Of a DNA stretch of 39,260 bases, positions 13,463 to 38,270 are shown piece after piece. How positions within the stretch are numbered: the first letter of the stretch is position 1; the number at the start of each line of letters is the position of its first letter. This stretch comes from Nostoc sp. TH1S01 (GTDB taxonomy: Bacteria > Cyanobacteriota > Cyanobacteriia > Cyanobacteriales > Nostocaceae). The notes beneath the pieces were generated by a model, which had not been told where the DNA came from, searched no databases, and was given only the letters and a program-made list of their open reading frames with translations. The stretch lies in the NCBI GenBank assembly GCA_018993265.1, contig JAGKSW010000119.1, positions 1-39,260 of the forward strand, in the 5' to 3' direction. The translations under genes were made by a program, and so were the position numbers.

Positions 13463-16400
13463 CTAGTTGGGTTGTTGATCTGGGAACATACACTTATCAG
13501 AATCGCAACCACTAGGGCCTGCTTCTGATAATTCGCCGGAGTCGTAGCGGCTGAGAACAGCGCAGAAGTCATCGGTTTTGCGTCGCGCTAACACTTCTTG
13601 AGATAAACGCTCATAGGTTGCTTTGTCTATGGGTTCAAATGGTAAGCGGGGGAATGATTGTAAATCGTCAAATCTTGCCAAAAGGGCGGCGGAGATATAG
13701 CCTTCATCATTTTGGATGGCTTCGTAAATTCGCGTTCCTAAAGGTTCAACTTCATCAGCACGAAGTTCTAGGGTAGCGGATGTGTTGTGGGTAACGTAAT
13801 GGCGCTGCACTTGCATGACAAAATCAAATTGGGCTAAGACAGGGAATCGAGAAACATCAATTTGATCAGCACCGGGTAAATCAGCCCAAGGTACAGCAAC
13901 AGGAATTTCTACTAGCCATTCACTGACGCGGGGATCGAAGGGATCGTTTAATAAGTTACCTTGTTCATCCTTGTCAGATTGGGAGGGAATGACATTATAG
14001 CCGTAGTCAATACAAGCTAAGGCTACGGGATCATTTTTGCGGAAAGTGATCCGGCGAATAAATCTTTGGGCTTTGGGTGGGTGCCATCCGGAACTAGCGC
14101 CAGATAACAGAGATTTAGTGCCGCTGGGTTGGACTGTAGTACAGCGATTAGGACGTTTGAGATTATGGCGATCGCAATAATCCCACACTGCCTTATGTAC
14201 TACTTCTCTCCAAAAGCTGAGATATTTTTCCTCTTGGTGCTTAAATGCTAACCCTTGGGGAGTAGCTGGTCTACCTTCTGCCCACCAGCGCAACCAGTCC
14301 ACACCAAAAGCATAAACAAAGAAATCAAATAAGCCAGTAAAAGAAACCCCTACAATTGGGTCTAATTCTCGACTGTATTGATAGCGCGGTTCCAAAAATT
14401 TATGGTTCAAAAGTGTGGCTACAGATAACGCCCCAGCAGTGAAAGCTTCCTCTTGTTCTTTGTAATTAAATGGGTCAATTTGGTTGAGATGAATCTCAGA
14501 CAAGTTGCAGTTACCAGTTAGAGTATTACCGAAAACACCCTTATGGTACTCCGGCTCATTAAAGCAATAAGTGTCATGTAATCCTGGTAATTGTTCAACA
14601 CTTTTCACAACTTGCCATTTACCTTTATATTTGGCATTTGTGCCTTTGCTCACATCCAAACGCTGACAAGGAATTTCGCCACAATCAGTTATTTGCAAGT
14701 AGTATAAATCTCTACTTCTGTGTCCATAATTAGTAACTGCTCCAGCGTGAGCGCAAAGATTTACAGATGAACGAATACCACATTTAGTTAGTAATAACTG
14801 AACTCGGTAAGCTCGTTCATAGTCAGAGATATATATTCTGATGCCGTTACTATTGGTATTTGAGCCATCTGTATCTGCTAAACCAGCAATAAAATGCAAT
14901 ATGGCTCGTCGGTTCCAACTAGCAATCACATTCAGTGCTTCTGGGGTAGTTTTTAGGCTTTTTAAGAATTCTCCAGAAAAACCTAAATCTGTGACATCTG
15001 TAAACGCAGGTGAATAACCATAATCCCTGATAGGAGATTTATTTCCTGCGAGATTCAAAGCGACTTTCTCTTTATACAACCTAATCTTGGGATGATTTTT
15101 TTGATCTGTTGTGCCATCTCCTACTGCTAACCCTAAAGTGTAGGCATAATTTAGATCGATATCTAATCCACCTTCATACTTAATTTTGAATGGTTCAGTG
15201 TGGATAGCATATCGACTGGTATCCATCAAATCTTTAGTTTGAACTTCTTGATAACTTTTGCTGAATCTATCTTTGACAAAGAAGCGATGATACTCAGTTG
15301 CATCTAAATATGAACCATCTCCAAAGCGCACACGATAGAGAATGCGAGAACTACCAGTTTTAAATGGTTGCACTTGACTCCAGTTTTTACCGTTCCAAAT
15401 GCTAATTTGACATCCCACAACATCCTGAATTTTGTGCATTCCATCTTGAGTAATCAGTAAGGTATCACCACTTACGCAGTGAAAATTTGCACCTATGATT
15501 TCTCCACATGGGTTTAAGCCGTATCTACCTAAACGATGTTCTAATTCTTTAGTATCAATTTCTGGGTAGCGTTGTTGTAACCAATCTTTAGCTTTTCCTT
15601 GATCATAAGCCTTTAAGAAATCAACTTTTAAAGCTTGTGTTGTTAGCAAATCGCAGTTAGCTCTAGCTACAGCTTCCCCAGCCCATTGAATTGCACCTTC
15701 TCCACTGTAATATTGTTTACGGACGGCTTCAATTGACTCTTGTAAAGTTGGTTTATGGTGAAATACTCTACTATGGTTCGCCATCCGTAAAGCATCACGC
15801 TCAGGGTCAATGCGCCAGTTACCGTTTTCGTCTTGTTGCCAGAGATTATCTTTGGCATTTGCCCCTAGTTCATCGTCAGAAACAAATTGGCGAATCCCCG
15901 CACTTCTTCGGATATTGCCCGCAACAATTGTTACAGCAGCTTCATCGATTAATAGGCAACATTCAACAGAATTTAATTGTCTGCCTAGAGCTTTATTTAA
16001 GATATCGGCACAACGTTGATACAATCCAGGCAATTTTACAGGATTGGCAACACCGCCAAAACCGTTGAGTGTTTCCCCTGCTTGACGGACATCGCTGATA
16101 TCAACAAATACTGCTACTTCATCTGTAAATCTTTCGTCTGTGGAAAGTTCCAACAGAGTTTGATAAGATGCAACCCAACCTTCGCGGCTATCACCAACAT
16201 GAATGGTAACGCGATCGCCTTCTATATCGGTTTGTGTAAATTCACGACGTAAGTTTTTTGGAGTGCTGCCAATTTCGCCTTGTACTGTGACATTGAGGCG
16301 ATTGCGGATAGGAGGCAGTTGATTAATATACTGCGGTTCGATGATGGCTCCTGTACCGCAGCCCATCATGGCCAAGTCCATCATTAAACCGAAGGCTTTC

Positions 16401-16729
16401 CAGTCTTGGAGATTGGTGGAGGTGCAATTGTACCCGCCGGAGAAGTTTTTGGGTTTATTTATCCAATCTGTACCGCCTACCCACAGCCAGCGGCCGCTAG
16501 GTAAAGCTTTGAGTTGGTGTTGGGTTTTTTCTAGGAGGGCGATTTCTTCTGGGTTGAGCTTACCTAATTCGATTAAGCCTTTGATGGTGCGATCGCACAC
16601 TTCATCCCACGATTCCCGTAATCCTACTCCAGTGCGGCGGCTATAAGTCCTAAAAAATACAGGATTGGCTGCTGGCGCGGTTTCGGGAAACGTAACACCC
16701 TGACGTTTTCTTTCAAGCTCTCGAACCAT
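13463..16729 (-). CDS. nrdJ: Adenosylcobalamin-dependent ribonucleoside-triphosphate reductase (class II) with an intein
   Basis: NrdJ reduces ribonucleotides to deoxyribonucleotides using a B12-derived radical. From ATG 16729 the precursor has 1088 residues: about 765 of extein plus a 323-residue intein. The radical-site cysteine is in NPCGEIIGANFHC. A partner cysteine is in GGYNCTSTNL near residue 108. The C-terminal redox pair is CDSDKC, just before the end, as in monomeric Lactobacillus-type RTPR. The intein interrupts the gene ten residues after the radical cysteine. I prefer ATG 16729 to TTG 16735 because MVRELERK is repeated after the same ATG in two partial copies upstream. The enzyme's B12 need matches the cobB gene in this window. 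Confidence 0.95.
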   Translation of the reverse strand: MVRELERKRQGVTFPETAPAANPVFFRTYSRRTGVGLRESWDEVCDRTIKGLIELGKLNPEEIALLEKTQHQLKALPSGRWLWVGGTDWINKPKNFSGGYNCTSTNLQDWKAFGLMMDLAMMGCGTGAIIEPQYINQLPPIRNRLNVTVQGEIGSTPKNLRREFTQTDIEGDRVTIHVGDSREGWVASYQTLLELSTDERFTDEVAVFVDISDVRQAGETLNGFGGVANPVKLPGLYQRCADILNKALGRQLNSVECCLLIDEAAVTIVAGNIRRSAGIRQFVSDDELGANAKDNLWQQDENGNWRIDPERDALRMANHSRVFHHKPTLQESIEAVRKQYYSGEGAIQWAGEAVARANCDLLTTQALKVDFLKAYDQGKAKDWLQQRYPEIDTKELEHRLGRYGLNPCGEIIGANFHCVSGDTLLITQDGMHKIQDVVGCQISIWNGKNWSQVQPFKTGSSRILYRVRFGDGSYLDATEYHRFFVKDRFSKSYQEVQTKDLMDTSRYAIHTEPFKIKYEGGLDIDLNYAYTLGLAVGDGTTDQKNHPKIRLYKEKVALNLAGNKSPIRDYGYSPAFTDVTDLGFSGEFLKSLKTTPEALNVIASWNRRAILHFIAGLADTDGSNTNSNGIRIYISDYERAYRVQLLLTKCGIRSSVNLCAHAGAVTNYGHRSRDLYYLQITDCGEIPCQRLDVSKGTNAKYKGKWQVVKSVEQLPGLHDTYCFNEPEYHKGVFGNTLTGNCNLSEIHLNQIDPFNYKEQEEAFTAGALSVATLLNHKFLEPRYQYSRELDPIVGVSFTGLFDFFVYAFGVDWLRWWAEGRPATPQGLAFKHQEEKYLSFWREVVHKAVWDYCDRHNLKRPNRCTTVQPSGTKSLLSGASSGWHPPKAQRFIRRITFRKNDPVALACIDYGYNVIPSQSDKDEQGNLLNDPFDPRVSEWLVEIPVAVPWADLPGADQIDVSRFPVLAQFDFVMQVQRHYVTHNTSATLELRADEVEPLGTRIYEAIQNDEGYISAALLARFDDLQSFPRLPFEPIDKATYERLSQEVLARRKTDDFCAVLSRYDSGELSEAGPSGCDSDKCMFPDQQPN
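14510..15478 (-). other. In-frame intein with LAGLIDADG homing endonuclease in NrdJ
   Basis: The insert runs from Cys418 to Asn740 of the precursor (323 residues) between extein ...GANFH and CNLSEIHL. Block A is CVSGDTLLITQDG. Block B has TEYH (intein residues 61-64). Dodecapeptide motifs are YTLGLAVGDG (113-122) and FIAGLADTDG (196-205), each keeping an acidic residue. Block F is TYCFNEPEYHKGVFGN and block G is TLTGN before the +1 Cys. The penultimate residue is Gly where His is usual; known functional inteins tolerate this. The frame is uninterrupted, so splicing and endonuclease activity both look possible. RIR1 inteins are well known in cyanobacteria. Confidence 0.93.
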
Positions 16730-16777
16730 AATCAAGTCTTGTTGGTTTTGAACAGATTATGAATATACGCCAAATGC

Positions 16778-16917
16778 TAAGTGACTTACAAACTGAGTAC
16801 TGACGCACGCGAAGCCAGAAATGCTGTTTTTTCGTTGAGATAAGATTTTAGAAACCAACGATTTTTCCTAGAAATCAGGTTTCTTTGCGTCAGTCTTCAA
16901 ACGTTGTAAGTCACTTA
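16778..16917. mobile_element. 136-bp MITE with TA duplication upstream of nrdJ
   Basis: Element 16780-16915 starts AGTGACTTACAA and ends TTGTAAGTCACT. The inverted repeat extends with gaps to about 31 bp on each side (the two arms share ACTGACGCA), and TA flanks both ends. A TA duplication and short perfect tips suggest mobilisation by an IS630/Tc1-type transposase, which is inference. It sits between the nrdJ start and the chimeric partial copy. A second, right-truncated copy lies at 17722-17834. Confidence 0.75.
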
Positions 16918-16938
16918 ATTATTCCGAACTCAGGTTAT

Positions 16939-17673
16939 TTAGAAAAACAGCAATTTTATTAAAGAAGCGATCGCAACAGCAACGCCTAAGATGGGATGCC
17001 AGAATCTACATTTCTGTCGAAGCCACCAAAAAAACTTTCTCTGCTGCTTTGACTTATACTTTGCTTGCTGGATCCGTTCTTGGGCAATACTCAACTCCAC
17101 GGCTGAAGAATTTGTGATGCAACTACCGGAAGTAGATGCGTTTTCATCCTCAGAGCCTCGATGATTTGGTAACATATAGTTTCTTGCTTCTAAATTGAGT
17201 GAAGTTAATTTAGGAGAAATGTTTGAGTGCTGGTCTGGTATTGCAACTACCAGATCAGCATTTATTTTTTGATATTGCGGTTCGATGATGGCTTCTGTGC
17301 CGCAGCCCATCATAGCCAAGTCCATCATTAAACCGAAGGCTTTCCAGTCTTGGAGATTAGTGGAAGTGCAGTTGTACCCGCCGGAGAAGTTTTTGGGTTT
17401 GTTTATCCAATCTGTACCGCCTACCCACAGCCAGCGGCCGCTAGGTAAAGCTTTGAGTTGGCATTGGGTTTTTTCTAGGAGGGCAATTTCTTCTGGGTTG
17501 AGCTTACCTAATTCGATTAAGCCTTGGATGGTGTGATCGCACACTTCATCATAAGATTCTCTTAATCCTATTCCCGTCCGGCGGCTGTAAATCCTGAAAA
17601 ATACAGGATTGGCTGCTGGCGCGGTTTCGGGAAACGTAACACCCTGACGTTTTCTTTCAAGCTCTCGAACCAT
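16939..17673 (-). CDS. Chimeric ORF: NrdJ N-terminus fused to an unrelated membrane-anchored tail
   Basis: Residues 1 to about 136 repeat the NrdJ N-terminus almost exactly, ending in IIEPQY. Conservative changes include RIYSRRTGIG for RTYSRRTGVG and CGTEAI for CGTGAI. After that Tyr codon the sequence becomes unrelated: about 110 residues starting QKINADLVVAIPDQHSN, a Ser/Asn-rich stretch, a basic segment (QQAKYKSKQQRKFFWWLRQK) and a final hydrophobic helix (PILGVAVAIASLIKLLFF). It lacks the radical cysteine and cannot be a reductase. The region from 17274 to about 17834 duplicates the nrdJ start plus its upstream DNA, with roughly 20-25 differences in 395 bp by hand count. It could be an expressed fusion or a stable pseudogene. 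Confidence 0.55.
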   Translation of the reverse strand: MVRELERKRQGVTFPETAPAANPVFFRIYSRRTGIGLRESYDEVCDHTIQGLIELGKLNPEEIALLEKTQCQLKALPSGRWLWVGGTDWINKPKNFSGGYNCTSTNLQDWKAFGLMMDLAMMGCGTEAIIEPQYQKINADLVVAIPDQHSNISPKLTSLNLEARNYMLPNHRGSEDENASTSGSCITNSSAVELSIAQERIQQAKYKSKQQRKFFWWLRQKCRFWHPILGVAVAIASLIKLLFF

Positions 17674-17706
17674 AATCAAGTCTTGTTACTTTTGAATAGA
17701 TGATGA

Positions 17707-18054
17707 CTATACGCCAAATGCTAAGTGACTTACAAACTGAGTACTGACGCACGCGAAGCCAGAAATGCTGTTTTTTCGTTGAGATAAGATTTTTGAAACC
17801 AACGATTTTTCGTAGAAATCAGGTTTCTTTACGCCGACATGAATGGTAACGCGGTTGCCTTCTATATCGGTTTGTGTAAATTCACGACGTAAGTTTTTTG
17901 GAGTGCTGCCAATTTCGCCTTGTACTGTGACATTGAGGCGATTGCGTATGGGAGGAAGTTGATTAATGTAAGTCCTGAAAAATACAGGATTGGCTGCTGG
18001 TGCAGTTTCGGGAAACGTAACACCCTGACGTTTTCTTTCAAGCTCTCGAACCAT
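17707..18054 (-). pseudogene. Second partial nrdJ copy with an internal deletion
   Basis: The frame begins MVRELERKRQGVTFPETAPA and reaches FFRTY, then jumps directly to INQLPPIRNRLNVTVQGEIG and onward to TIHVG. In full-length NrdJ these segments are separated by about 108 residues (SRRTG...EPQY). Homology ends near 17838, after which the frame runs into the truncated MITE and stops at 17707. The deletion joint is a shared TA within a Tyr codon. It contains no catalytic residues. It is the outermost of three tandem nrdJ 5' segments. Confidence 0.75.
17722..17834. repeat. Right-truncated copy of the nrdJ-upstream MITE
   Basis: This repeats 16778 to about 16890 with a few mismatches (TAAGTGACTTACAAACTGAG at the start), then breaks at TTCTTTACG and continues as nrdJ-like coding sequence. 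The MITE was therefore present before the duplication and was cut by it. Confidence 0.8.
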
Positions 18055-19487: not shown

Positions 19488-20252
19488 TTAAATCCCTGCG
19501 CCATCGAGAAATTCTTGAATTGCTTTGTCTCGGAGGCTACATAAAGGAGCTTCTGGTTTTGGTTCAGGTTCTTGAACAGCTACCGCACCCACTAATACGG
19601 GAGTTTTAGCAGCAGGTTGTAGTTGCTGTAGATTTTGGATTTGTTGTTCTAATGCTTCAATGCGATCTACTAAAGCGCGAATTACTTCCGCTTCCGAGTC
19701 TGGTAAGTTGTTGTGTTCTAGAGGTGCAACCCGAACTCCCGAACGATAAACAATCCGCCCAGGAATGCCCACAACAGTACAATCAGAAGGCACATCCCTG
19801 AGAACAACTGACCCAGCACCAATGCGGACATTATTACCAATGTGAATATTGCCCAGTACCTTTGCACCAGCACCGACTACGACATTTTCCCCGACTGTAG
19901 GATGGCGCTTACCACTTTGTTTACCAGTTCCGCCCAAAGTGACACCTTGATAAATTAGAGCATAATCACCTATGATTGCCGTCTCACCAATCACCACACC
20001 CATACCGTGGTCAATAAATACTCCTTGTCCAATGGTTGCACCTGGGTGAATTTCGATACCAGTCAAAAATCGAGATAGGTGAGAAATGAAGCGGGGAACA
20101 AAGGGAAGACCAAAATGGTGTAGCCAGTGAGCCAGTCGGTGAAAAAGCAGGGCTTGCAAGCCAGGGTAACAAACCAAAACCTCTAACCAGTTACGGGCGG
20201 CTGGGTCACGTTCAAAAATAATGCGAAAATCGGCACGTAGAGTAGATAGCAC
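19488..20252 (-). CDS. cysE: Serine O-acetyltransferase
   Basis: CysE acetylates serine with acetyl-CoA, the first step of cysteine synthesis. The 254-residue protein begins with the short bacterial-type N-terminal helices ([20 protein letters not shown]), then the left-handed beta-helix with hexapeptide repeats. Catalytic and binding motifs include [28 protein letters not shown] and [11 protein letters not shown]. After about residue 185 it carries a cyanobacterial extension with a short coiled coil ([18 protein letters not shown]) and a Pro/Glu-rich stretch. The usual C-terminal cysteine-feedback region is replaced by this extension. Confidence 0.93.
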
Positions 20253-23176: not shown

Positions 23177-24355
23177 ATGAGAGCATTAAAAATCATTTTT
23201 CTGGGATTTGCTTATATTTTGTGTGTTGGTTTGGTATTAATTTCCGTATCGGCGGGATATGCAACAACATCAGCCTCCGTTGATACCTTGCGACAACAAC
23301 AGCAACAAATTAATCAAGAACGCCAGAATGTAATTCAGGAACGCGATCGCTTGACGAATTTGCAAAATGCTGCTCAAAAACGTTTAACTGGAATTAACCA
23401 AAATATCAACACCACAAATAATCAAATTCAAGATAGTGAATCGCGGTTAGCACAAGCAAGCCTTCGCCTACAGAAGTTAGAAGCTGATTTAGCTGTGGCG
23501 CAACGTACTTATGAAGAACGACAAGTCGCCACAGTAGCAAGATTGCGTTATCTCCAGCGATCGCACGCTAGTCAAGGCTGGGCGGTTTTAATGCAAAGCC
23601 AAAATATCAGTGACTTTATCAGCCGTCGTCATCAATTAAAGTTAGTCTATCAGGCAGACCAGAAAATTTTAGCTAAACTCAATGTTCAAGCATTGCAAAT
23701 CAATCAGCAAAAAACTGACGTAGAACAGCAAAAAAATGAAATTGCGTTAATTCGTCAGCAATTACTCTTACAAAAATCAGATTATCAAGCTCAAGCACAG
23801 TCACAAGCAGAATTAATTCAACGCTTAAATAGCGATCGCCTCGCCTTAGAAGCAGCCGAAAATCAATTAGAAAGAGACTCGCATAATTTAGACAACTTAA
23901 TTCAAGAAAAAGTCGCCGCCTTAGAAGGACGCAGCAAAACCAACAGCCGCAATAGCATTATCATTCGCGGTACAGGACTGTTTACTTATCCGAGTAATGC
24001 ACCTACTAGCAGTCCCTTTGGCTGGCGGATACATCCGATTCTCGGCTATCGTCGCTTCCATGCAGGTTTAGATTTTGCAGCTAGCTATGGTAGTACAATT
24101 CGCGCCGCCGATTCGGGAACTGTAATTTTTGCGGGGTGGTATGGTGGCTATGGTAGAGCCGTAATTATCGACCACGGTAACGGACTAACCACACTCTACG
24201 GACACACCAGTGAATTATTTGTTTCTGAAGGACAAGGAGTACAACGCGGACAAGCGATCGCGGCTGTTGGTTCCACAGGTTTTTCTACCGGGCCACACCT
24301 ACATTTTGAGGTGCGTCGTCATGGTACTCCAGTCAATCCGGCTGATTTTCTTTAA
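23177..24355 (+). CDS. M23 family metallopeptidase with coiled coil (EnvC/NlpD-like)
   Basis: This 392-residue protein is predicted to be secreted to the cell wall. An N-terminal signal or anchor (FLGFAYILCVGLVLISVSA) is followed by a long coiled coil (about 35-255, Gln-rich) and a C-terminal LytM domain. Zinc ligands are H295 and D299 (FHAGLDFA) and H376 in PHLHFEV, with H374 alongside. All ligands are present, so it may be an active glycyl endopeptidase or an amidase activator of the EnvC type. Such proteins act at septa. The tRNA gene follows 59 bp downstream. Confidence 0.93.
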   Translation: MRALKIIFLGFAYILCVGLVLISVSAGYATTSASVDTLRQQQQQINQERQNVIQERDRLTNLQNAAQKRLTGINQNINTTNNQIQDSESRLAQASLRLQKLEADLAVAQRTYEERQVATVARLRYLQRSHASQGWAVLMQSQNISDFISRRHQLKLVYQADQKILAKLNVQALQINQQKTDVEQQKNEIALIRQQLLLQKSDYQAQAQSQAELIQRLNSDRLALEAAENQLERDSHNLDNLIQEKVAALEGRSKTNSRNSIIIRGTGLFTYPSNAPTSSPFGWRIHPILGYRRFHAGLDFAASYGSTIRAADSGTVIFAGWYGGYGRAVIIDHGNGLTTLYGHTSELFVSEGQGVQRGQAIAAVGSTGFSTGPHLHFEVRRHGTPVNPADFL

Positions 24356-24393
24356 GGTTGATGCTAAATTGCCTACAAACTTGATCACAACCA

Positions 24394-24402
24394 TGCTATA
24401 AT
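24394..24402 (+). promoter_or_regulatory. Extended -10 promoter of tRNA-Arg
   Basis: TGCTATAAT is a consensus extended -10 element, 12 bp before the tRNA. No good -35 box is seen at the standard spacing, which an extended -10 can compensate. Confidence 0.6.
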
Positions 24403-24414
24403 GCAGGAGACTAA

Positions 24415-24487
24415 GGGCGCGTGGCTCAGTGGATAGAGCAACAGATTCCGGTTCTGTGGGTCGGGGGTTCAAATCCCTCCGCGCTCG
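24415..24487 (+). tRNA. tRNA-Arg (anticodon CCG)
   Basis: A 73-nt cloverleaf folds by hand. The acceptor stem is GGGCGCG/CGCGCTC with one G-U pair, the D-arm GCTC...GAGC, the anticodon stem ACAGA/TCTGT with loop TTCCGGT (anticodon CCG), and the T-arm GGGGG-TTCAAAT-CCCTC. The discriminator base is G and CCA is not encoded. It reads CGG codons. A transposon-like end begins three bases after its last nucleotide. Confidence 0.97.
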
Positions 24488-24490
24488 TTT

Positions 24491-24590
24491 TGTACATTAA
24501 CTAATTACTTGTCCGCGTTGACAAAATTAATTTCCAGATTGCCAAGTTAATGTCGGCGTTGACAAATTGTGTGTCATGATAGCATTCTGC
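24491..24590. mobile_element. Orphan end resembling a type V-K CAST (Tn7-like) left end
   Basis: The sequence after tRNA-Arg begins TGTACA (24491-24496), the terminal hexamer of type V-K CRISPR-associated transposons, and continues with spaced TnsB-site-like repeats. TTGTCCGCGTTGACAAAATT is at 24509-24528 and TGTCGGCGTTGACAAATT at 24551-24568, with a partial TGTGTCATGAT at 24570-24580. The arrangement of TGTC/TGACA motifs separated by AATTAA tracts resembles the left ends of Scytonema and Anabaena CAST elements. V-K elements insert about 60-66 bp from a GTN PAM, with the left end facing the target, often a tRNA gene; a GTG at 24429-24431 lies about 60 bp before 24491. No tnsB, tnsC, tniQ, cas12k or opposite end is visible, so this would be a relic. 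Confidence 0.6.
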
Positions 24591-24640
24591 CATATATAAA
24601 GTATGGCAAAATTCTTATTTTATAGTGTAACTAATCAGTT

Positions 24641-24828
24641 TTTATTAGGACTTACGCACTGTACAAAATAACTATCTTGTGTATCAACGTAAATACGTTG
24701 TTTCAGGCTTTTATCAATCATCTTTAATTGAGTGCGATCGCTAAAATCTCATTGAAAAATCTAGCTATCAGCCTTGAAAACTCTACCTGTTATTTTGGCT
24801 TTTCTGTCAATGCGTAAGTCCTATTTAT
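24641..24828. mobile_element. 178-bp MITE with TTTAT duplication
   Basis: Element 24646-24823 starts TAGGACTTACGCA and ends TGCGTAAGTCCTA, a perfect 13-bp inverted repeat. The direct repeat TTTAT flanks it (24641-24645 and 24824-24828). It carries a HIP1 octamer in its interior and no ORF. It lies just downstream of the CAST-like end. Confidence 0.75.
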
Positions 24829-25359
24829 ATTAAAGCTAAAATCAAGCTCTTCAAACAAAGAATCTGTTGCTCTATCCTTTCAAACCGCCTCTAGTTGAGA
24901 GGGGTAGATTTTACATAATTATGTGTGATTGTTGTCACATTTTGCTTATGACGATAATCATTTACTTAAAAACTTTTCAAGATGTACTATCCCTTTACAA
25001 CGGCTTAGGGTAGTAAAAATCCAGATAAAAACTTGATAAAAGCATCGAGCTTCACTCCAACTTGCAGTAAAAGTTCCCTATTCTCTGTTAAGCGTTAATG
25101 TCATTTCATAATCTGGAAATAGCATTGAGTCTATCAGATAGCCCACTGGTAAAACATGGTGTAAATCAAGCACCAATTTCAAATCTATGAAACCCCAACT
25201 GTGTAGTAATTACAAATTATGCACAGTTAAAGTGAGGCTAAAACAAGGACTAAATCATTGAAATGACACAAATAAGATTTTGGAAATTCTTTTGAGAGAA
25301 TGTTACTTCCAATTGAGCCAACTGATTGTATTAAGCGACATTGATGAGGATGTTGAATC
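24829..25359. other. Gene-free region upstream of the Gly-rich repeat gene
   Basis: This is AT-rich DNA of about 530 bp with no convincing ORF, presumably the promoter and leader of the 25360 gene. No regulatory box could be assigned with confidence. I see no RNA gene in it. Confidence 0.4.
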
Positions 25360-26898
25360 ATGGTTAGATTGACCGTACCACCCAATTTCATCGGCACTGC
25401 GGGTGCTGACACTTTAATCGGAGAAGAGCTACAGACATTGACGGCAATTGGTATTAATGTTTCAACTGGAGGTGTGATTAGTACACTATCAGGAAACGAC
25501 AGCGTTCAAGGCAGAGCTACAGGCTCCCAGAGTGCTGGTGCTGGGCAAGGTGTTGGGATTGGGACAGGGATCGCCAACAGTGGCAGTATAGATACTAGGG
25601 ATGGAGAAGACACGATCACAGGCACAGGTACAGGTGGGGGTGGCTTTGACTCTTTTGGTGCTGGCAGTCCTGGGGGCGCGGGTGGTACTGGGACTGGCAT
25701 TAGCAACAGTAGTAGCGGTAGCAGCATTGCCACTATTAAGACAGGTATAGGAAAAGATACGATCATCGGCACAGGTACAGGCGGTATTGGCGGCCAGGCA
25801 GGCAGAGGCCGAAGTGGCGATGGTGGTAACGGAACAGGTATCAGTAACAGTGGCAGTATCAATACAGCAGATGGAGACGATGCGATCGCTGGTTATGGTA
25901 CTGGCGGGAACGCGGGTTCTACTGGTGGCACTGGTGGCAATGGTGGTACTGGAATTGGGATCAGCAACAGCAGCAGTATTTATACTGAAATCGGGAATGA
26001 TACCATTACAGGTAACGGTACAGGCGGTAACGGTGGCATAGGTGGCCCAGATAACGGCGGCAACGGTGGCAATGGTATCGGGATTAGCAACAGTAGCACT
26101 CTAGATACTGGAAATCAACAGGACACCATAACAGCCAATGGTACAGGTGGCAACGGTGGTAACAGTAGCATATTCGGCTTCGGAAATGGCGGTAATGGTG
26201 GTACTGGTATTGGTATCAGTAACACTGGCACAATTAATACAGGAGGCGGAGATGATACTATCACTAGCACCGGAAACGGTGGCACTGGCGGTGCTGGCAA
26301 TATGTATTTTGGTGTTGTTGGTAGTGGTGGTACGGGAATCGGCATTGAGAATGCACAAAATGCTACCCTTGCTACAGGAGCAGGCAACGACAAGATTACA
26401 GCTTCAGGCAACAGTTCAGGTGTAAATGCCACTGCTTACGGCATCTCCAACAATGGAGTAATTAATACAGGTGGGGGTTATGACATGCTCACCGGATCTG
26501 CTGTAGTGACAACTGGCGGTACTGCCTACGGTATTTATGGACAAGGAACTATCAATACTGGTGATGGCAATGATCAAGTTATTGCCACTAGCACCATAAA
26601 TCAAGTGGAGCAGAAAGTAACTGTTGGTGGTGGTATCAAAATCAATTTAGGTACTGGAAATGACTCCTTTAAAGGGTTTGGTACTGCAACTGTTGATGGC
26701 GGATCAAATTTTGACATCCTTGATCTAAGTGCTTTCAATCGCTCTGAACTCATCATATCCGGTGTCATTTCTGGCAATATATCTAATCCTGCCAACTTCA
26801 CCTTTAATAATAATGGAAATGCTATTACTCTTACTACGACTGGTTTTGAGAGTTTTGTCTTTGCAGATGGTTCTTTTTCTTACAACACTTTGACTTGA
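25360..26898 (+). CDS. Gly/Asn/Thr-rich RTX-like repeat protein
   Basis: This 512-residue protein is built of nine to ten imperfect repeats of about 30-45 residues. The consensus is close to GIGISNSGSINTGDGDDTIT, followed by GNGTGGNGG-type spacers of variable length. The GxGxD-like cores (GDGDD, GGGDD, GAGND, GTGND) recall hemolysin-type calcium-binding nonapeptides, but one per repeat, not in arrays. The spacers shrink towards the C-terminus, where a cap follows (SNFDILDLSAFNRSELIISG ... TTTGFESFVFADGS). There is no signal peptide, consistent with type I secretion as in other RTX proteins; that is inference. A terminator lies downstream. ATG 25360 is followed by the conserved-looking IGTAGADTLIGEE. 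Confidence 0.8.
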   Translation: MVRLTVPPNFIGTAGADTLIGEELQTLTAIGINVSTGGVISTLSGNDSVQGRATGSQSAGAGQGVGIGTGIANSGSIDTRDGEDTITGTGTGGGGFDSFGAGSPGGAGGTGTGISNSSSGSSIATIKTGIGKDTIIGTGTGGIGGQAGRGRSGDGGNGTGISNSGSINTADGDDAIAGYGTGGNAGSTGGTGGNGGTGIGISNSSSIYTEIGNDTITGNGTGGNGGIGGPDNGGNGGNGIGISNSSTLDTGNQQDTITANGTGGNGGNSSIFGFGNGGNGGTGIGISNTGTINTGGGDDTITSTGNGGTGGAGNMYFGVVGSGGTGIGIENAQNATLATGAGNDKITASGNSSGVNATAYGISNNGVINTGGGYDMLTGSAVVTTGGTAYGIYGQGTINTGDGNDQVIATSTINQVEQKVTVGGGIKINLGTGNDSFKGFGTATVDGGSNFDILDLSAFNRSELIISGVISGNISNPANFTFNNNGNAITLTTTGFESFVFADGSFSYNTLT

Positions 26899-26968
26899 AA
26901 GCAGATAGTCAGTAGAACTCTTGCATAAATATTTCTAGTTCTATTATTCCAGTGATCGATAGGCTCAT

Positions 26969-27003
26969 ATCCCCGAATTTTTCAACAAATTGGGGATATT
27001 TTT
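26969..27003 (+). terminator. Rho-independent terminator of the RTX-like gene
   Basis: ATCCCC-G-AATTT pairs with AAATT-GGGGAT around a TTCAAC-type loop and is followed by ATTTTTG. It lies about 70 bp after the stop codon. Confidence 0.75.
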
Positions 27004-27168
27004 GTTTATAAAAACTACAATAGATTCAAGTATGACAACAGAGTAAAATTCTGCTAATGTTGCATTAGAGTTAGGATAAAATTAACCGCAGATGAACGCA
27101 GATAGACGCGGATAGAATTTTGATTATTGCACAAATTTAGCTGTCTCAATCCAATCTCTTAGGCACTT
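27004..27168. other. Spacer after the RTX-like gene
   Basis: This is an AT-rich spacer with a short GATGAACGCAGATAGACGCGG-like dispersed repeat near 27091-27112, seen commonly between cyanobacterial genes. No gene is seen. Confidence 0.35.
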
Positions 27169-27318
27169 ATAGCAATCCTATCTGAATTGTGAAAAAATAT
27201 TCTTTTTAATGAACCGCAAAGAACGCATAGACGCGATAGCGGCTTCCCGCAGGGTAGGACACAAAGAACGAGAATAAAGAGAAGAAAAAGAATTTCACGA
27301 ATGATTTAGGATTGCTAT
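27169..27318. repeat. 150-bp MITE-like element
   Basis: ATAGCAATCCTA (27169-27180) and TAGGATTGCTAT (27307-27318) are perfect 12-bp terminal inverted repeats. Weaker pairing continues inward (AATTGTGAAA with TTTCACGAAT). The interior holds a GCGATAGCGGCTTCCCGCAGGG-type dispersed motif near 27232-27254. No ORF and no certain target duplication. Confidence 0.65.
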
Positions 27319-27420
27319 TTTAAATAAGAGCAGCAGAATATAGCGGTTTAAATTCAAGATTTGGATATACAAACTCTTGAATTATTCTGCTACGTTATGC
27401 ATATCTTCCCTATAAAAATG

Positions 27421-27864
27421 TTATTTACCAGAGCAATAGGTATTAATTTCATTCACTATTGCACCTTCATCACTACCACTCTTTTTCAAAGATGCTAAAG
27501 AAGCATTTGCTGCTTTGAGATTTTTTTTATCAATAGCAGCAGCGGTATCACGTAAACCCTTACTTGTATCTTGATATAACTTAATAAATCGTCCTTGAAA
27601 GCCTTGTAATTTTTCATCTTTAATTTCTAACGCTTTCATTTCATTAGCAAAAGTATCTATTTTACCTGCGACTTCTGTTAATGATTTAGAACCTTTTTCT
27701 CGTTGCGGATTTTTGCTAAATTCTTGACTTAATGTGACTGCTTGATTAGCAACTTTGATAATTTTATTGCATTGAGCTACTTTGCTTTCGCCGCAACCTG
27801 TAAATATAACTGCGATCGCTGCCGTGGCTGAAAGCATAACAGTTTTTTTAACAATACTTTGCAT
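27421..27864 (-). CDS. Predicted lipoprotein, unknown function
   Basis: This 147-residue protein has a lipoprotein signal peptide and lipobox IFTGC (lipidated Cys24). The mature part is mostly helical with charged, Lys-rich segments (EVAGKIDTFANEMKALEI, FIKLYQDTSKGLRDTAAAID). A second pair of cysteines (C32 near the mature N-terminus and one in TYCSGK at the end) could form a disulfide linking the two ends. I recognise the general type from cyanobacterial hypotheticals, without a function. It is a single gene with its own leader. Confidence 0.75.
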   Translation of the reverse strand: MQSIVKKTVMLSATAAIAVIFTGCGESKVAQCNKIIKVANQAVTLSQEFSKNPQREKGSKSLTEVAGKIDTFANEMKALEIKDEKLQGFQGRFIKLYQDTSKGLRDTAAAIDKKNLKAANASLASLKKSGSDEGAIVNEINTYCSGK

Positions 27865-28146
27865 TTTTTGGGTATCTCCTACATATATATATTTCCGGCA
27901 ATAAGCAGATAAAGCAAATTAGCCACAGCAAACATACTTCTTCCAGCTATGAATTTGAAATAATAATTTAACTTTTGTTTCTAACTTACTTTTCGCCCTG
28001 CTAAGTTATACTGCATGATTCCTACGATGCGTATTAAACGTTACTAATTTAAAAAACTTAAAGTTGTAGATAGGTAAGTTTTTTCTGTGAGTGGGAATGC
28101 CGAATTATGTAAAATGCACAAAGTATAAGATATGGAGAGATAAAAA

Positions 28147-28887
28147 ATGGCATTGACTGGGGTCAGGATTGTGTTGGTAGAACCAGCTGGCCCAATTAAT
28201 GTGGGTGCGATCGCTCGTGTGATGAAAAATTTTGGTTTGTATAACCTAATATTAGTTAACCCCCAATGTGACCCGCGCTCGCCAGAAGCCATGAAAATGG
28301 CAGTCCATGCCAAGGATATTTTAGAATCTGCCCTAGAGGTAGCAACTTTGCCAGAGGCTTTGCAAGGATGTGTCAGAGCGATCGCTACTACTGCGCGTGT
28401 GCGTGATTGGGGAACGCCGTTAGAAACACCCCGCACCGCCTTACCTTGGTTACTGGAAGAACCAGACAAACCCTCTGCCTTGATTTTTGGCAGAGAAGAC
28501 CGAGGATTAAGTAATGAAGAATTAAATTATGCCCAGCGATTTGTTCGCATTCCTACCAGTGAGATATATCCCTCGTTAAATTTAGCTACGTCCGTTGGGA
28601 TTTGTTGTTATGAACTGGCGCAACAAGTAGAAATCGCGCCACCTCAGATTAGCCAAGAGACAGAATTAGCACCTTTTGAGCTTGTGGAATCCTACTACCA
28701 ACAATTAGAATCTCTACTGTTAGATATTGGCTATCTGTATCCCCATACAGCAGCTAGTCGGATGGAGAAATTTCGCCAACTTTTTAATCGCTCTCGACTG
28801 ACAACTAATGAAGTGGCGATGTTGCGCGGGATTTTTCGGCAAGTAGAATGGGCGCTCAACAATCGTAATGATGATGAAAACTTATGA
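28147..28887 (+). CDS. trmJ: tRNA (cytidine/uridine-2'-O-)-methyltransferase TrmJ
   Basis: TrmJ is a SPOUT-class enzyme that 2'-O-methylates position 32 of tRNA anticodon loops using SAM. The 246-residue protein has the family's N-terminal LVEPAGPINVGAIARVMKNF, the knot motifs LIFGREDRGLSNEEL and IPTSEIYPSLNLATSV, and a C-terminal helical tail (ASRMEKFRQLFNRSRLT) typical of TrmJ. GGAGAG 8 bp before ATG 28147 supports the start. Single gene. Confidence 0.93.
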   Translation: MALTGVRIVLVEPAGPINVGAIARVMKNFGLYNLILVNPQCDPRSPEAMKMAVHAKDILESALEVATLPEALQGCVRAIATTARVRDWGTPLETPRTALPWLLEEPDKPSALIFGREDRGLSNEELNYAQRFVRIPTSEIYPSLNLATSVGICCYELAQQVEIAPPQISQETELAPFELVESYYQQLESLLLDIGYLYPHTAASRMEKFRQLFNRSRLTTNEVAMLRGIFRQVEWALNNRNDDENL

Positions 28888-29052
28888 TGTATCGATTAAT
28901 ATATACGGAATCTCCCTCAAAATAGATAATATGGCTTAAACTAAACACACTACTGAGTAGTAAAAGTTGATTTCAGCATCAAGCTGTATGAACATTCAGT
29001 TTTAGGCCGGGAGTCTGCAAGAAAAAATTCGAGTGAGTCACAAGGAGTAGCA

Positions 29053-30603
29053 GTGACAGAATCAAGTGACAAACTAAGAGCTTTCTCGCGGCGACAACCC
29101 GTAAATGGCCGCCCGCGATCGCGCAAAGCTCAAAAAGAAAAAGTGCAACCAAAAAAAGCGAAAGTTCCTCAACCACAGCAACGACCTGTGACGAGAGAAG
29201 CTATGCTGGCACCAGGTGCGATCGCAGTTAACGGAGTTCCCCGGCCAAGACAAGGGCTAGTTATGCCAACGGCTGTCAAACCCATCCCCAGAAAATTAGT
29301 GAATGTTCCACCCGCACAGGCCAGCACGGTGAAGGTAAAAACAGTGCGGGTGCAAAAGCCACCACAGCCCAAAGTAACCAGAAGAGTGTCGAAAAAGACA
29401 CGGCTAAAGCCAATGGCGAGAACGATGTTATATATCCTGCGGTTGTTAATTGTGGGAGTCGGTATGGGTGCGATCGTTGGTACAGTATTATCAGTTCTCG
29501 ACCCGGCTAATCGCATCAATTCAAATTCGTCCGTGTCATCGAATACAAATAATTCTGGTCAAGTTCAGCCACAAAGCACCCCTAATCCCGCCGTTCCAAC
29601 ATCAGGTTTATACCTATCCCAAGAAATTACCTCCTTGAAAAATGCTGTCCAAAATTTGGCAGCCGCCACTCCAGACCTAACACCCGGCATTTTCGTAGTA
29701 GATTTAGATAATGGTGGCTATGTAGATATCAATGCCTCTGTTGGTTTTCCTGCTGCTAGCACTATTAAAGTCCCAATTTTGGTAGCGTTTTTCCAAGATG
29801 TCGATGCAGGTAAAATCCGTCTGGATGAAATGCTAACCATGCAACAGGATATGGTAGCAGGCGGTTCTGGAAATTTCCAATTCAAACCAGTTGGCACCCA
29901 GTATAGTGCATTAGAAGTTGCCACCAAAATGATTACCATCAGCGACAATACAGCCACAAATATGCTGATTGCGCGACTGGGAGGCATAGAAGCATTAAAT
30001 CAGCGTTTTCGCGGTTGGGGATTAACCACAACAGTAATTAAAAATCAACTGCCAGATTTACAAGGGACAAACATCACCAGTCCCAGAGAATTAGGTAATT
30101 TGATGGCAATGGTGAATCAAGGTAACTTTGTGAGTCTGCGATCGCGCGATATCATGCTGGATATTATGCGTCGTACCGAAAGAGATCATCTACTACCATC
30201 TGGTTTAGGCACAGGTGCAAGAATCTACCATAAAACAGGCGATATTGGCACAATGCTCGCAGATACGGGTTTAGTTGATATTCCCAATGGCAAACGCTAC
30301 ATCATTTCTGCGATGGTAAAACGTCCAAATAATGACCCCCGCGCCGAAAAATTAATTAGTTCCATTTCTCGGATTACTTACGAAAATCTCAGTCAAAGTA
30401 GCCCAGCTAACACCACTAATAACAATATCCCGACAACTACTTATCCATCTCCAGCTATTAGTTCTCCCGCACCTAATACTACTGGTGTGATGCCGATGAA
30501 TGGTTATCAATCACCTATAATGAATCCTGCTATACCTAACAGCATACCCATGACTGGTTATCAATCGCCAGTCATTAACCCCCAATATTATCCCCCAAGA
30601 TAA
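29053..30603 (+). CDS. Membrane-anchored class A beta-lactamase-like serine hydrolase
   Basis: This 516-residue protein starts at GTG 29053, with AAGGAG five bases upstream. Residues 1-122 are a basic, Pro-rich cytoplasmic segment, residues about 124-147 a transmembrane helix (LYILRLLIVGVGMGAIVGTV). After a Ser/Asn linker comes a penicillin-binding fold with S236-x-x-K239 (ASTIK), S297-D-N (TISDNTATNM) and K394-T-G (HKTGD). All three beta-lactamase/transpeptidase motifs are present. The tail repeats MNGYQSPIMNP / MTGYQSPVINP. It could be a beta-lactamase, a DD-peptidase or an unrelated hydrolase. It lies 21 bp upstream of the psb28-like gene. Confidence 0.85.
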   Translation: MTESSDKLRAFSRRQPVNGRPRSRKAQKEKVQPKKAKVPQPQQRPVTREAMLAPGAIAVNGVPRPRQGLVMPTAVKPIPRKLVNVPPAQASTVKVKTVRVQKPPQPKVTRRVSKKTRLKPMARTMLYILRLLIVGVGMGAIVGTVLSVLDPANRINSNSSVSSNTNNSGQVQPQSTPNPAVPTSGLYLSQEITSLKNAVQNLAAATPDLTPGIFVVDLDNGGYVDINASVGFPAASTIKVPILVAFFQDVDAGKIRLDEMLTMQQDMVAGGSGNFQFKPVGTQYSALEVATKMITISDNTATNMLIARLGGIEALNQRFRGWGLTTTVIKNQLPDLQGTNITSPRELGNLMAMVNQGNFVSLRSRDIMLDIMRRTERDHLLPSGLGTGARIYHKTGDIGTMLADTGLVDIPNGKRYIISAMVKRPNNDPRAEKLISSISRITYENLSQSSPANTTNNNIPTTTYPSPAISSPAPNTTGVMPMNGYQSPIMNPAIPNSIPMTGYQSPVINPQYYPPR

Positions 30604-30624
30604 ATTTTCAACTTGGCATTGCTC

Positions 30625-30990
30625 ATGACATCTACCACACCCTCAATTCAGTTTTTTGCAGGCATTTTTGAAGAACTCAGTAATGTGAGTTTGCGACGTG
30701 GCAAAGTTTCAGGTAAACGCATCGTCGCTATGACTTTTAATAAATTACAAGCTTTAGAAGGATTTAATAGTTTTACAAAACCATCTTTAAATTCCTTACT
30801 GTTGACGGATGAAGAAGGAGAGATTAGTGTGACCCCTTCTTCAACTCGATTTATTTTTGGTGGTGATGAGGGTGATGAATTACAACGGGTAGAATGCCAA
30901 TTTGAAATCGAACGAGATGATCATTGGGAACGCTTCATGCGCTTTATGCAGCGTTACGCTGAAGCTAATGGTATGGAATATCAAGGTTGA
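30625..30990 (+). CDS. psb28: Photosystem II assembly protein Psb28-like (Psb28-2 type)
   Basis: Psb28 proteins bind assembly intermediates of photosystem II around CP47. This 121-residue product begins IQFFAGIFEELSNVSLRRGK and ends with the family signature WERFMRFMQRYAEANGM. The body (LLLTDEEGEISVTPSSTRFI, VECQFEIERDDHW) has the antiparallel fold pattern. It is more divergent from the classic MAKIQFSRG opening, so it looks like the second, Psb28-2-type paralogue. ATG 30625 is preferred over an upstream TTG. It follows the serine hydrolase gene closely and may share its transcript. Confidence 0.85.
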   Translation: MTSTTPSIQFFAGIFEELSNVSLRRGKVSGKRIVAMTFNKLQALEGFNSFTKPSLNSLLLTDEEGEISVTPSSTRFIFGGDEGDELQRVECQFEIERDDHWERFMRFMQRYAEANGMEYQG

Positions 30991-31097
30991 TTGCAAATTT
31001 TAATTATGATGAATAATAGGGAGCCACAAGACTATAAGTAGTTTTCCCATACAGACAACAGTAAAAATTCATCAAAATTAACAGGCCAAGACAATTC

Positions 31098-31292
31098 ATG
31101 CGACGAAATCAAATTATTATTGCAAGTACTATAGGCACATTAGCAGCAATATCCATAGGGTATTTCGGAGTTCAAATTTTTGGGCGAGATACAATGTACG
31201 GAGTGAGTGCTGGTATGTTTGGCATCGGTGCAGGTGACTATCTTGGCCAGGTTGTTTCTAAAAGAAAGCAGCGGCGAATGGTAATGATCTAA
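31098..31292 (+). CDS. Small membrane protein, unknown function
   Basis: This 64-residue product has two short hydrophobic stretches (IIIASTIGTLAAISIGYFGV and SAGMFGIGAGDYLG) and a basic tail (SKRKQRRMVMI). One or two membrane spans are likely. It shares the strand of the Psb28-like gene 107 bp upstream. I do not recognise the family. The Shine-Dalgarno is weak. Confidence 0.5.
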   Translation: MRRNQIIIASTIGTLAAISIGYFGVQIFGRDTMYGVSAGMFGIGAGDYLGQVVSKRKQRRMVMI

Positions 31293-31371
31293 GTGAATTA
31301 GGAAACCCTGTGATAGATACTGGCTGAGTTGGAATGGGAATAATACCTAAAACCGTTACGGAGTAATACCG

Positions 31372-31566
31372 ATGGAACAATACCTCAGAGAAGCAATAGG
31401 TCTAGGTAGTCCTCAAATTGTACCCGAACCATTACCAAAACCTGAAGTAGAACCACAACCACAAGTTACAATCTACGATTTGGCAGACTTACTTGTCAAA
31501 AACGAACCATCGAAAATTGAACATTACCCAACTAGTAATATATTGATCACTATTCGGTTACTGTAA
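31372..31566 (+). CDS. Small acidic Pro-rich protein, unknown function
   Basis: GGAG (31360-31363) precedes ATG 31372 by 8 bp. The 64-residue product has a Pro/Glu segment (VPEPLPKPEVEPQPQV) followed by TIYDLADLLVKNEP, a possible short amphipathic helix. No family is recognised. It might be an authentic small protein or an accidental frame; the ribosome site favours the former. Confidence 0.4.
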   Translation: MEQYLREAIGLGSPQIVPEPLPKPEVEPQPQVTIYDLADLLVKNEPSKIEHYPTSNILITIRLL

Positions 31567-31675
31567 GTAAGTCATCATTGCGGAGACTCGTCTACAGTTT
31601 TAGTCTTGTAAAAAAAATTTGCTCACTATTAAATAGATTAGGGGCGCAAAGCCTTGCACCCCTCAATTAATATAA

Positions 31676-32749
31676 TTATTTTTTCTTCATATCTTGGCGC
31701 TTTTGTTCCAGATAATTCAGTAATGTAAGTACGTGAACTTCAAATTCTGCATTTCTTCGGGTGACAGATTCAATTGGTGGAACAGAAAAAGTATCTGGAA
31801 AATTAATCACTAAATTTCCTAGACGTATTCCTAAAGGTCTTAAATGTCCACCTTTGAGTTTGGCACGAAAATCTTCTGGTGGCTTTTTCAATTTATTGAA
31901 GAACCATTCCCGTGTAGATTTGCCTATATTATCTAAAGGAAAATAAACTAAACCCAACAAATTAAATAAATTGCTGTTTTCGATTAAAGCCTCGGTTTCT
32001 TGGGGAGTTGGTTTAACGTTAAAACCAAGCCTGATAATAAAATCTGCTAAAGCTTTAGGTTTAATGGCGCTGTCGAGTCCAGTATTGACTGGTGCTAATA
32101 GTAGAGATGCTTGGCTTTTAATAAAGATGCTGTTAATCTTAACATTTGATTCGTCAAAATCAGTTTGCTCTTGCGCTTCATCTTGATTGACATAATAGGA
32201 AGTCAATTTTTTTGCATCTGCGCTTTTATTTTCTAAGTCACGAATGAGGTTTTCTAAATCATTGACAATACTTTGAACTTTTTTGGCTTGTTTTTCTGGA
32301 GATAAATTACCAGAAGTTTGTTTGACTATTTGCCAAACAAAACATTCTATTTGGTCTCGTTTTTTAGGTAAGGCACTAAAAGCTTCTAAAAGAGCAATAT
32401 ATTTGCAACCAATACTATGACCTATCCAAGAAAAATTAGAATCGTCTAGATAAACTTTGTATTCATAATCTGCTAATTCTGCCATTCTCACTAATTCTGG
32501 CATGAGTTTATATTGTTCTCTGATGAGAAAACCTGCCTCTGCATAATGGTCAAAAGTAAAGTTAAATGGCAAGAGAATGATTGTATAGCCTTGCTGAAAT
32601 AAACATTCCAGCAGATAGCGATAAAAAAACATCGGGCCAAATGTACCAAAAAAAGCCCCACCAATAAATTGAATTACCCCTTTAGGTTGCGGATGTAACG
32701 CTACCCAACTAAAAGAAACAGGTTTAAATCTCAACTTTAAATTAGTCAT
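31676..32749 (-). CDS. DUF1350 family alpha/beta-hydrolase-like protein
   Basis: This 357-residue protein belongs to DUF1350, found in cyanobacteria and chloroplasts, with an alpha/beta-hydrolase-like fold and unknown activity. It opens with FSWVALHPQPKGVIQFIGGA, then FGPMFFYRYLLECLFQQGYT and the nucleophile elbow GHSIG (110-114, Ser112). Coiled or Lys/Glu-rich residues follow at about 140-200. An acid/His partner for the Ser is not obvious by eye. Single gene between a small plus-strand frame and a 320-bp spacer. Confidence 0.82.
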   Translation of the reverse strand: MTNLKLRFKPVSFSWVALHPQPKGVIQFIGGAFFGTFGPMFFYRYLLECLFQQGYTIILLPFNFTFDHYAEAGFLIREQYKLMPELVRMAELADYEYKVYLDDSNFSWIGHSIGCKYIALLEAFSALPKKRDQIECFVWQIVKQTSGNLSPEKQAKKVQSIVNDLENLIRDLENKSADAKKLTSYYVNQDEAQEQTDFDESNVKINSIFIKSQASLLLAPVNTGLDSAIKPKALADFIIRLGFNVKPTPQETEALIENSNLFNLLGLVYFPLDNIGKSTREWFFNKLKKPPEDFRAKLKGGHLRPLGIRLGNLVINFPDTFSVPPIESVTRRNAEFEVHVLTLLNYLEQKRQDMKKK

Positions 32750-33069
32750 GTTTGTGATTGATTAACAGTACAAATTGAGGGTGTTCTGATTATTAAAAAC
32801 ACGCCCTAGCAAAATAAAATTAGATAACTTCTCAGAATCTTATTTGATTCAGAAGTTGCAGTAATTATGTTTGTGGTTTGTCTTTAGATACTTCACGTTA
32901 ATTGTTAATTACGTTATCTGTAACTTTTATTTACAATTGACGGCGTGGTCTTGTAGGGTGTGAATCGGCGATCGCCTCAACATCCAATTCATGATTGTGG
33001 CAGATAGGTTGATAAAATCGAGACGCAGACAGCAATTATCAATTAAAAATAGTAGAATCTGGAGACTTT
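32750..33069. other. Divergent spacer
   Basis: This is a 320-bp AT-rich spacer between two divergent genes. It contains one HIP1-like GGCGATCGCC and presumably both promoters. No further feature is visible. Confidence 0.35.
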
Positions 33070-33618
33070 ATGCCCAAGCTCAACGTTAAGCAGAAAAACT
33101 GGCTACTTTCGGCTCATGTGGCTTTTGGTAGCATTTGGTTTGGTACAGCTTTAAGTATAGTAGCGATCGCCTTAAAAAATGCTCACACTACTAATGGTGA
33201 TGAATTGTATGCGGTTAATGCCGCTTTGAAACTGCTGGATGATTTCGTGATTATTCCCTCAGCAAATTTGTCTTTACTCACTGGTGGACTGCTTTGCTGG
33301 TTAACAATTTGGGGATTTTTTAAACACTACTGGGTAATCTTCAAATGGATTGCGACAGTTACTTTGATTACTACAGGAACCGTTTGGCTAGGGCCTTGGT
33401 TAAACGCCGCTACCAGTATTTCCGATGTCGAGCGATCGCAAGCCTTGAGTAATCCCCTGTACAACTTTGATATTAAAGGTGTTCTCATAGGTGGTACAAT
33501 TCAAGCTGTCTGTATACTTGTTATTATTGCTATTTCCGTGCTGAAACCTTGGGGTAGAAGAATAGCCAAATCTTCAGAACCATCTACAGCATTAAATACT
33601 GAGACAAAAGTAAATTAA
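33070..33618 (+). CDS. DUF2269-like four-helix membrane protein
   Basis: This 182-residue integral membrane protein has four hydrophobic helices (about 12-33, 60-80, 86-107 and 138-160). His15 (LLSAHVAFGSIWFG) and the general pattern fit DUF2269/YwiC-like predicted membrane proteins, sometimes suspected of binding haem. ATG 33070 follows GGAGAC by 5 bp. Its last four bases overlap the dprA stop on the opposite strand, so the two genes converge. Confidence 0.65.
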   Translation: MPKLNVKQKNWLLSAHVAFGSIWFGTALSIVAIALKNAHTTNGDELYAVNAALKLLDDFVIIPSANLSLLTGGLLCWLTIWGFFKHYWVIFKWIATVTLITTGTVWLGPWLNAATSISDVERSQALSNPLYNFDIKGVLIGGTIQAVCILVIIAISVLKPWGRRIAKSSEPSTALNTETKVN

Positions 33619-34790: not shown

Positions 34791-34827
34791 AGTTTTTTCA
34801 TTTCAACTTTTTTTATGCGTCAGCACC

Positions 34828-36282: not shown

Positions 36283-36404
36283 TAATATAGCGGTTCCTGC
36301 TGGCTAAAGTTTCAGACTTCATACTTTTAATATTTTCTTAATCTCTGGTTGATTGTCGGTTGATAAGTTCATCGCATTTGTGCGGAAACTGACTAAGAAC
36401 GGAT

Positions 36405-37979: not shown

Positions 37980-38270
37980 TTCATATCCTGCACAATTCTC
38001 AACCGTAGGGTGGGCAATACTAAAAATTCGCTGACTTGCTGATTTTTAGGTTGTGAGCATTGCCCACCCTACTGGCTATTACCCTAAACAACTTTTTATC
38101 TTCAAACAACTGGTAGAAACCCGCAGTTTTACGTACATTTGGGTAATTTCGCAGTAAAAACATGAACTTTTGTTAACTCGTGCGTAATTCTTAGGAGCTA
38201 CGCTGAAGTTATTATTAGCACGACAAAACAATTCGTTCATACAATCAACAAAGCAAGGGAGTAAGTTATC
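37980..38270. other. Spacer after phoD
   Basis: The spacer contains the nested hairpin described separately and then the presumed promoter and leader of the 38271 gene. A 71-codon minus-strand frame (38079-38294) overlaps the start of that gene and shows nothing coding-like. Confidence 0.35.
38005..38072. repeat. Nested palindromic hairpin
   Basis: The outer arms GTAGGGTGGGCAAT (38005-38018) and ATTGCCCACCCTAC (38059-38072) are perfect complements. An inner pair, CTAAAAAT and ATTTTTAG, lies inside. It looks like a dispersed palindromic element doubling as the phoD transcription end. Confidence 0.65.

Follow-up and report, generated by a model that had tools for sequence, protein, structure and literature searches.

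A very probable relic of a type V-K CRISPR-associated transposon, with its anchor guide, behind tRNA-Arg(CCG) in Nostoc sp. TH1S01

The tRNA-Arg(CCG) locus and its flanking features

The DNA analysed here (the window, 39,260 nt), taken from a draft genome of 247 contigs, holds a complete tRNA-Arg(CCG) gene followed by the left end (LE) of a type V-K CRISPR-associated transposon (CAST), a MITE and a short spacer with its CRISPR repeat (Table 1). A TGTACA terminus (nt 24491–24496) lies 3 nt past the end of the tRNA gene and precedes two LE repeats, starting at nt 24510 and 24551; a degenerate third one, recognised by eye between them (nt 24531–24546), lies at the 20-bp spacing known from relatives. 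By analogy with published V-K ends, these repeats presumably bind TnsB, and an LE with repeated putative transposase sites, downstream of a tRNA gene pointing toward it, is a feature of V-K CASTs that the window shows. A first-pass annotation had reported the TGTACA with two close repeats just 3′ of a complete tRNA gene, and a GTG inside this gene about 60 bp from the LE. Coordinates and ARAGORN agree with the former, the gap between the GTG and the LE measures 59 nt, and the two repeats stand, at a spacing of 41 bp instead of about 42 bp. Exact matches to the LE repeat pattern in the window are indeed limited to these two copies. When up to 3 mismatches are admitted, 21 matches occur against 16 expected (18 of 100 shuffles reach 21) and TGTACA itself shows no excess (9 against 9.9 expected); motif counts alone are thus at chance level in the window, and the case for the LE rests on comparison.

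Table 1. Features of the putative CAST relic and of its attachment gene (positions in the window).
Feature	Position (nt)	Strand	Basis
tRNA-Arg(CCG), attachment (homing) gene	24415–24487	+	ARAGORN
GTG, GTN PAM of the anchor protospacer	24429–24431	+	Sequence; PAM type after PMC9938897
Anchor protospacer, 17 nt, within the tRNA gene	24432–24448	+	Identical to the spacer at nt 24860–24876
V-K CAST left end (LE)	24491–24645	+	Sequence; homologous block at the same tRNA gene in relatives
Palindrome TGCCATA...TATGGCA, inner LE region	24588–24608		By eye; present in relatives too
178-bp MITE inside the putative relic	24646–24823		Missing in relatives; ends and flanks; copy in the genome
Anchor (homing) spacer, 17 nt	24860–24876	-	Perfect tRNA match; same place and sequence in relatives
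Array-type CRISPR repeat without its first 8 nt; recognisable right border of the putative relic	24877–24905	-	Repeats of G114 and G160

In a repeat search of the window, 18 nt of the tRNA gene matched nt 24860–24877 perfectly in inverted orientation; of these, the spacer proper corresponds to the protospacer at 17/17 nt, directly behind the GTG PAM. With up to 3 mismatches the spacer sequence occurs in these two places only, against 0.10 chance matches expected, and none of 100 shuffles reaches two. The first-pass annotation had proposed to look in such CASTs for a short delocalised spacer matching nt 24432–24455; a spacer of this kind, corresponding to nt 24432–24448, is found in the window itself. 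It had escaped that annotation and is the decisive evidence for the CAST. The CRISPR repeat beside it, recognisable over 29 of 37 nt, is identical at 26/29 nt to the array repeat of the CAST in genome G114; with the array repeat of the same-genus genome G160, one base longer than that of G114, 23 of the last 29 nt match without gaps. Among the 22 guides compared at tRNA-Arg(CCG), 21 carry a short truncated repeat or its remnant, those of G157 and G166 diverging soon after it, and the array type is found only in the window, where the truncated repeat R* (about 12 nt) is absent beside the anchor spacer and replaced by the array-type repeat.

The MITE is flanked on both sides by TTTAT (nt 24641–24645 and 24824–24828) and has a 98% copy elsewhere in the same genome. 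Several relatives align to nt 24222–24641 and resume at nt 24827–24890, and G160 is uninterrupted where the window has the MITE; with the MITE removed, the order from LE to guide is that of the CASTs of relatives. The MITE into which the DNA had been said to run on is thus real, not beyond the element as proposed but between LE and guide.

On the right side of the guide (nt 24905–39260), tblastn with Cas12k, CvkR, TnsB, TnsC and TniQ gave no match better than E 0.26, in agreement with the earlier statement that neither a transposition gene nor cas12k follows the LE, and no CAST right end was found within 4 mismatches from the tRNA gene to the contig end. The idea that nt 24905–25360 are leftover CAST DNA gained no support: matches of this stretch lie mostly near the start of the Gly-rich gene or are short and scattered over genomes, and none is to a CAST protein. 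Elsewhere in the genome, cas12k is represented by three fragments, one of them at a contig edge, and tnsB by two fragments, one with a stop, plus a 912-aa frame that holds one distant TnsB relative at 26% identity; a complete Cas12k was not found. The edge fragment, a C-terminal part of cas12k, belongs to a second V-K CAST end on contig C62 (nt 1–1900), where it is accompanied by a CRISPR array, an anchor-like spacer (by eye) and an LE beside tRNA-Val(GAC). Further to the left in the window (nt 13463–18054), a long ORF that resembles ribonucleotide reductases and is interrupted by an intein-like insert is followed by partial duplicates of its own start (by eye).

CASTs and left-end tips at the same tRNA gene in relatives

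The block formed by the tRNA gene and the LE served as query against 217 genomes from the same family, and homologous elements of this family were used for the comparison of the LE in place of the ShCAST and AcCAST ends. All 217 genomes match the block, mostly with the tRNA alone among the matches listed; 10 other genomes matched over the entire 226 nt at 79–89% identity and a further one over 225 nt, with shorter matches in many. Behind the guide, several relatives carry a CRISPR array and then cas12k with a MerR-type regulator; the Cas12k of G135 was identified by both PADLOC and NCBIfam. By tblastn, cas12k sequence lies beside 10 of the 22 guide-bearing loci (G014, G019, G075, G112, G114, G117, G129, G135, G142 and G160), being only a piece in G075 and containing a stop in G142. 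G208 is the eleventh genome with such a gene, which coordinates place about 2.2 kb from the tRNA gene; at the other 11 guide-bearing loci no cas12k was found within the 0.5–19.7 kb searched.

The right end was located about 10.4 kb from the tRNA gene in G142 and about 14 kb in G129, the elements being flanked by repeated bases (GTTACC and TTTTT, respectively). The DNA beyond the right end of G129 corresponds to the tRNA flank of G119 (95% over 1.47 kb), and that beyond the right end of G142, over about 100 nt, to the flanks of G149 (87%) and G118 (79%). The unoccupied site of G129 is represented by the flanks of G119 and G131, with 8 mismatches to the LE consensus (10 in G133), so that an older decayed LE is possible there. 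Flanks free of LE occur in G158, G159, G162, G164 and at one G161 locus, and LE-bearing flanks run into cas12k in several genomes; the block is therefore not the ordinary conserved flank which the first-pass annotation had named as the finding that would speak against it. The full CASTs it had suggested looking for at this tRNA gene in close relatives do occur, as V-K CASTs with this LE, and both of its central proposals, a CAST left end behind tRNA-Arg(CCG) and this gene as a homing target, are borne out by the homologous LE with cas12k at the same tRNA gene and by a spacer identical to it.

Three loci deserve separate description. In G113 the LE, guide, array and right end are all contained within about 1.3 kb after the tRNA gene, with ACTTT on both sides; this locus is a short two-ended CAST derivative, and G113 is absent among the matched genomes listed for cas12k. 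G014 carries two copies of the tRNA on the minus strand (nt 19728–19800 and 3995–4067): one, next to an old LE, shows 9 differences and is called tRNA-Trp(CCA) by ARAGORN, and a perfect tRNA-Arg(CCG) lies 15.7 kb further, directly before LE, guide and cas12k. The attachment tRNA seems to have been duplicated, with the old copy decaying. G161, where one contig has an incomplete tRNA-Arg with a perfect LE tip and a second contig an LE-free tRNA-Arg(CCG), perhaps reflects the same kind of duplication.

A census then covered 106 tRNA-Arg(CCG) flanks in 105 genomes out of the 217; most are among the best tRNA and LE matches, and the sample is hence not random. An LE tip (6 or fewer mismatches in 23) was present in 65/106 flanks and in 0/2080 control windows, the 65 being a lower bound of LE-bearing loci and not a frequency. 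Among the remaining flanks, 33 have at least 9 mismatches and 8, with 7–8, were assigned to neither the LE nor the LE-free class. The guide is present in 22 of the 65 LE loci and absent in 43. All 65 were searched for genes over the longest stretch each offered (0.2–20 kb): scraps of cas12k, cvkR or tniQ were found in 7 of the 43 guide-free loci and none in 36, of which 13 were searched over 11.7–19.7 kb and 23 over 0.2–1.6 kb, so that genes farther out would escape. By shared right flanks, about 35 junction types are distinguished among the 43, a maximum, because older events common to several loci may go unnoticed. The LE length kept in these loci has a median of 51 bp when the six failed LE-length alignments are counted as zero or less, or of 59 bp without them.

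An essential tRNA gene is a barrier that deletions cannot enter, and the simplest reading of the bare LE tips is erosion against such a wall. It is improbable that some of them are one-ended insertion scars and not only products of erosion; the transposase would in that case have joined the tRNA-proximal end only, the rest being lost during repair. In G114 a cas12k-bearing CAST sits between the tRNA gene and an older LE tip; the flank of this tip has its match in G107 and G132 (97% over 1.16 kb). This re-insertion indicates that the site was used more than once and that an old tip is no absolute barrier; full immunity conferred by a leftover LE is contradicted by the same locus.

Proposed history of the relic and alternative readings

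The element in the window is very probably the deletion relic of a V-K CAST at tRNA-Arg(CCG), consisting of LE and anchor guide with a nested MITE. By analogy with its homologues, the element would once have been complete here. A V-K CAST guided by its own 17-nt anchor spacer would have inserted 59 nt downstream of the GTG PAM in the tRNA gene; deletions would then have taken the array, the tracrRNA, cas12k, the regulator, the cargo, tnsB-tnsC-tniQ and the right end. The MITE entered between LE and guide at some point. The array-type repeat found at the guide in place of the truncated one suggests a deletion inside the CRISPR array, which may have fused the truncated with the array repeat by recombination between the two; another breakpoint would lie inside the array-type repeat, at about nt 24905. 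What is left cannot move by itself.

The surroundings of the tRNA gene have been rearranged as well. In relatives, the counterpart of the window block that starts at nt 28092 is remote from tRNA-Arg, the distance by coordinates being about 485 kb in G158 and about 350 kb in G157. The MerR-type gene that comes next after tRNA-Arg(CCG) in G158, G159 and G164 corresponds to nt 2781–3264 of the window, which places it 21 kb left of the tRNA gene. The displaced gene and the distant block point to a rearrangement that parted the tRNA gene from its former neighbour, and this may have been the event that cut the CAST. An inversion, with the remainder of the CAST between the displaced MerR gene and the gene next to it, was considered and rejected: nt 3264–3455 contain neither a CRISPR repeat nor a right end (by eye), and in G158 and G159 the sequence to the left of the matching segment shows no match to the right side of the window.

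The first-pass annotation had left open whether the LE marks a relic left by deletion of a CAST or a mini-element. The LE and guide of the window would suit a non-autonomous mini-CAST, still movable by enzymes supplied in trans, and short two-ended derivatives do exist, such as that of G113. No right end within 4 mismatches was found, however, between the tRNA gene and the contig end, and the matches to cas12k and tnsB in the same genome are fragmentary, save for the one TnsB relative at 26% identity, so that a mini-CAST is very unlikely. The deletion relic fits better and is the half of the proposal that we retain, since no right end was found on the rest of the contig. A type I-D or other Tn7-like CAST, homing by a TniQ/TnsD protein, was discarded, the anchor guide being present and the homologues carrying cas12k.

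It might also be asked whether the remnant was kept for a use, with the LE shielding the tRNA site from insertions or the guide RNA acting in trans. LE tips are common here, the window spacer is still perfect and target immunity is ascribed to V-K CASTs (PMC11406308). Against this, the G114 CAST lies between the tRNA gene and an older tip, the similar relic of G166 has two spacer changes, no complete Cas12k was found in the genome and the guide strand folds no better than its shuffles (z −0.08); we regard such a use as very improbable. There is similarly little likelihood of a misassembly at the CRISPR repeat (about nt 24905) hiding an intact CAST in the real genome. Indeed, the assembly is a draft, one contig edge carries a piece of cas12k and the join falls within a repeat, but the edge piece belongs to the other CAST, beside tRNA-Val and with a different repeat, and the window repeat would appear too diverged and too short for a misjoin. 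That the block is ordinary tRNA flank without any relation to CASTs, as its presence behind this tRNA gene in many genomes might suggest, can practically be dismissed, given the LE-free flanks, the LE flanks running to cas12k and the homologous elements with right ends and repeated flanks.

Comparison with known V-K CASTs

V-K CASTs, their tRNA sites and their anchor guides are already known (PMC9938897, PMC11406308). They are reported only in cyanobacteria (PMC11406308), and the cyanobacterial survey includes 12 Cas12k proteins that are degenerate, besides many partial CASTs detected via the regulator (PMC9938897). Papers on bare left ends at a tRNA gene were sought by the starts of abstracts, in a library lacking most subscription papers, and none was found. 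What is new here is the fossil record at the tRNA-Arg(CCG) site and the hybrid repeat. The locus shows a CAST fossil to be recognisable from end and guide alone, without any gene, and tRNA-Arg(CCG) in this family becomes a record of insertion, decay and re-insertion of an RNA-guided transposon, open to questions on the rate at which such elements arrive, on the way they perish and on any protection of the site by an end left behind.

The CAST end on contig C62 shows the V-K order of cas12k piece, array, anchor-like spacer, LE and tRNA gene; it differs from the relic in attachment gene and in repeat, and it is not its source. The eroded relics of G157 and G166, from the same genus, resemble the window in having an LE-like block with an anchor guide and no cas12k (19.7 and 0.5 kb searched, respectively), and differ from it in the lack of a MITE, in the truncated-type repeat remnant and in a more decayed LE. 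The CASTs of G129, G142 and G135 have the attachment gene, the spacer and a homologous LE in common with the window and, unlike it, carry an array, cas12k, the regulator and TnsB, TnsC and TniQ sequence.

According to the survey of cyanobacterial V-K CASTs (PMC9938897), these elements have a GTN PAM and a 17-nt anchor spacer that reads in the direction of the LE; PAM and LE are 46–82 nt apart in all but one case, and the tRNA gene is directed toward the element. Compared with the AnCAST-type elements described there, the window is without cas12k, tracrRNA, tnsB-tnsC-tniQ and right end, has its spacer on an array-type instead of a truncated repeat and received a MITE; it shares with them the tRNA gene and the 17-nt spacer directed toward the LE, the GTN PAM and a distance within the 46–82 nt range.
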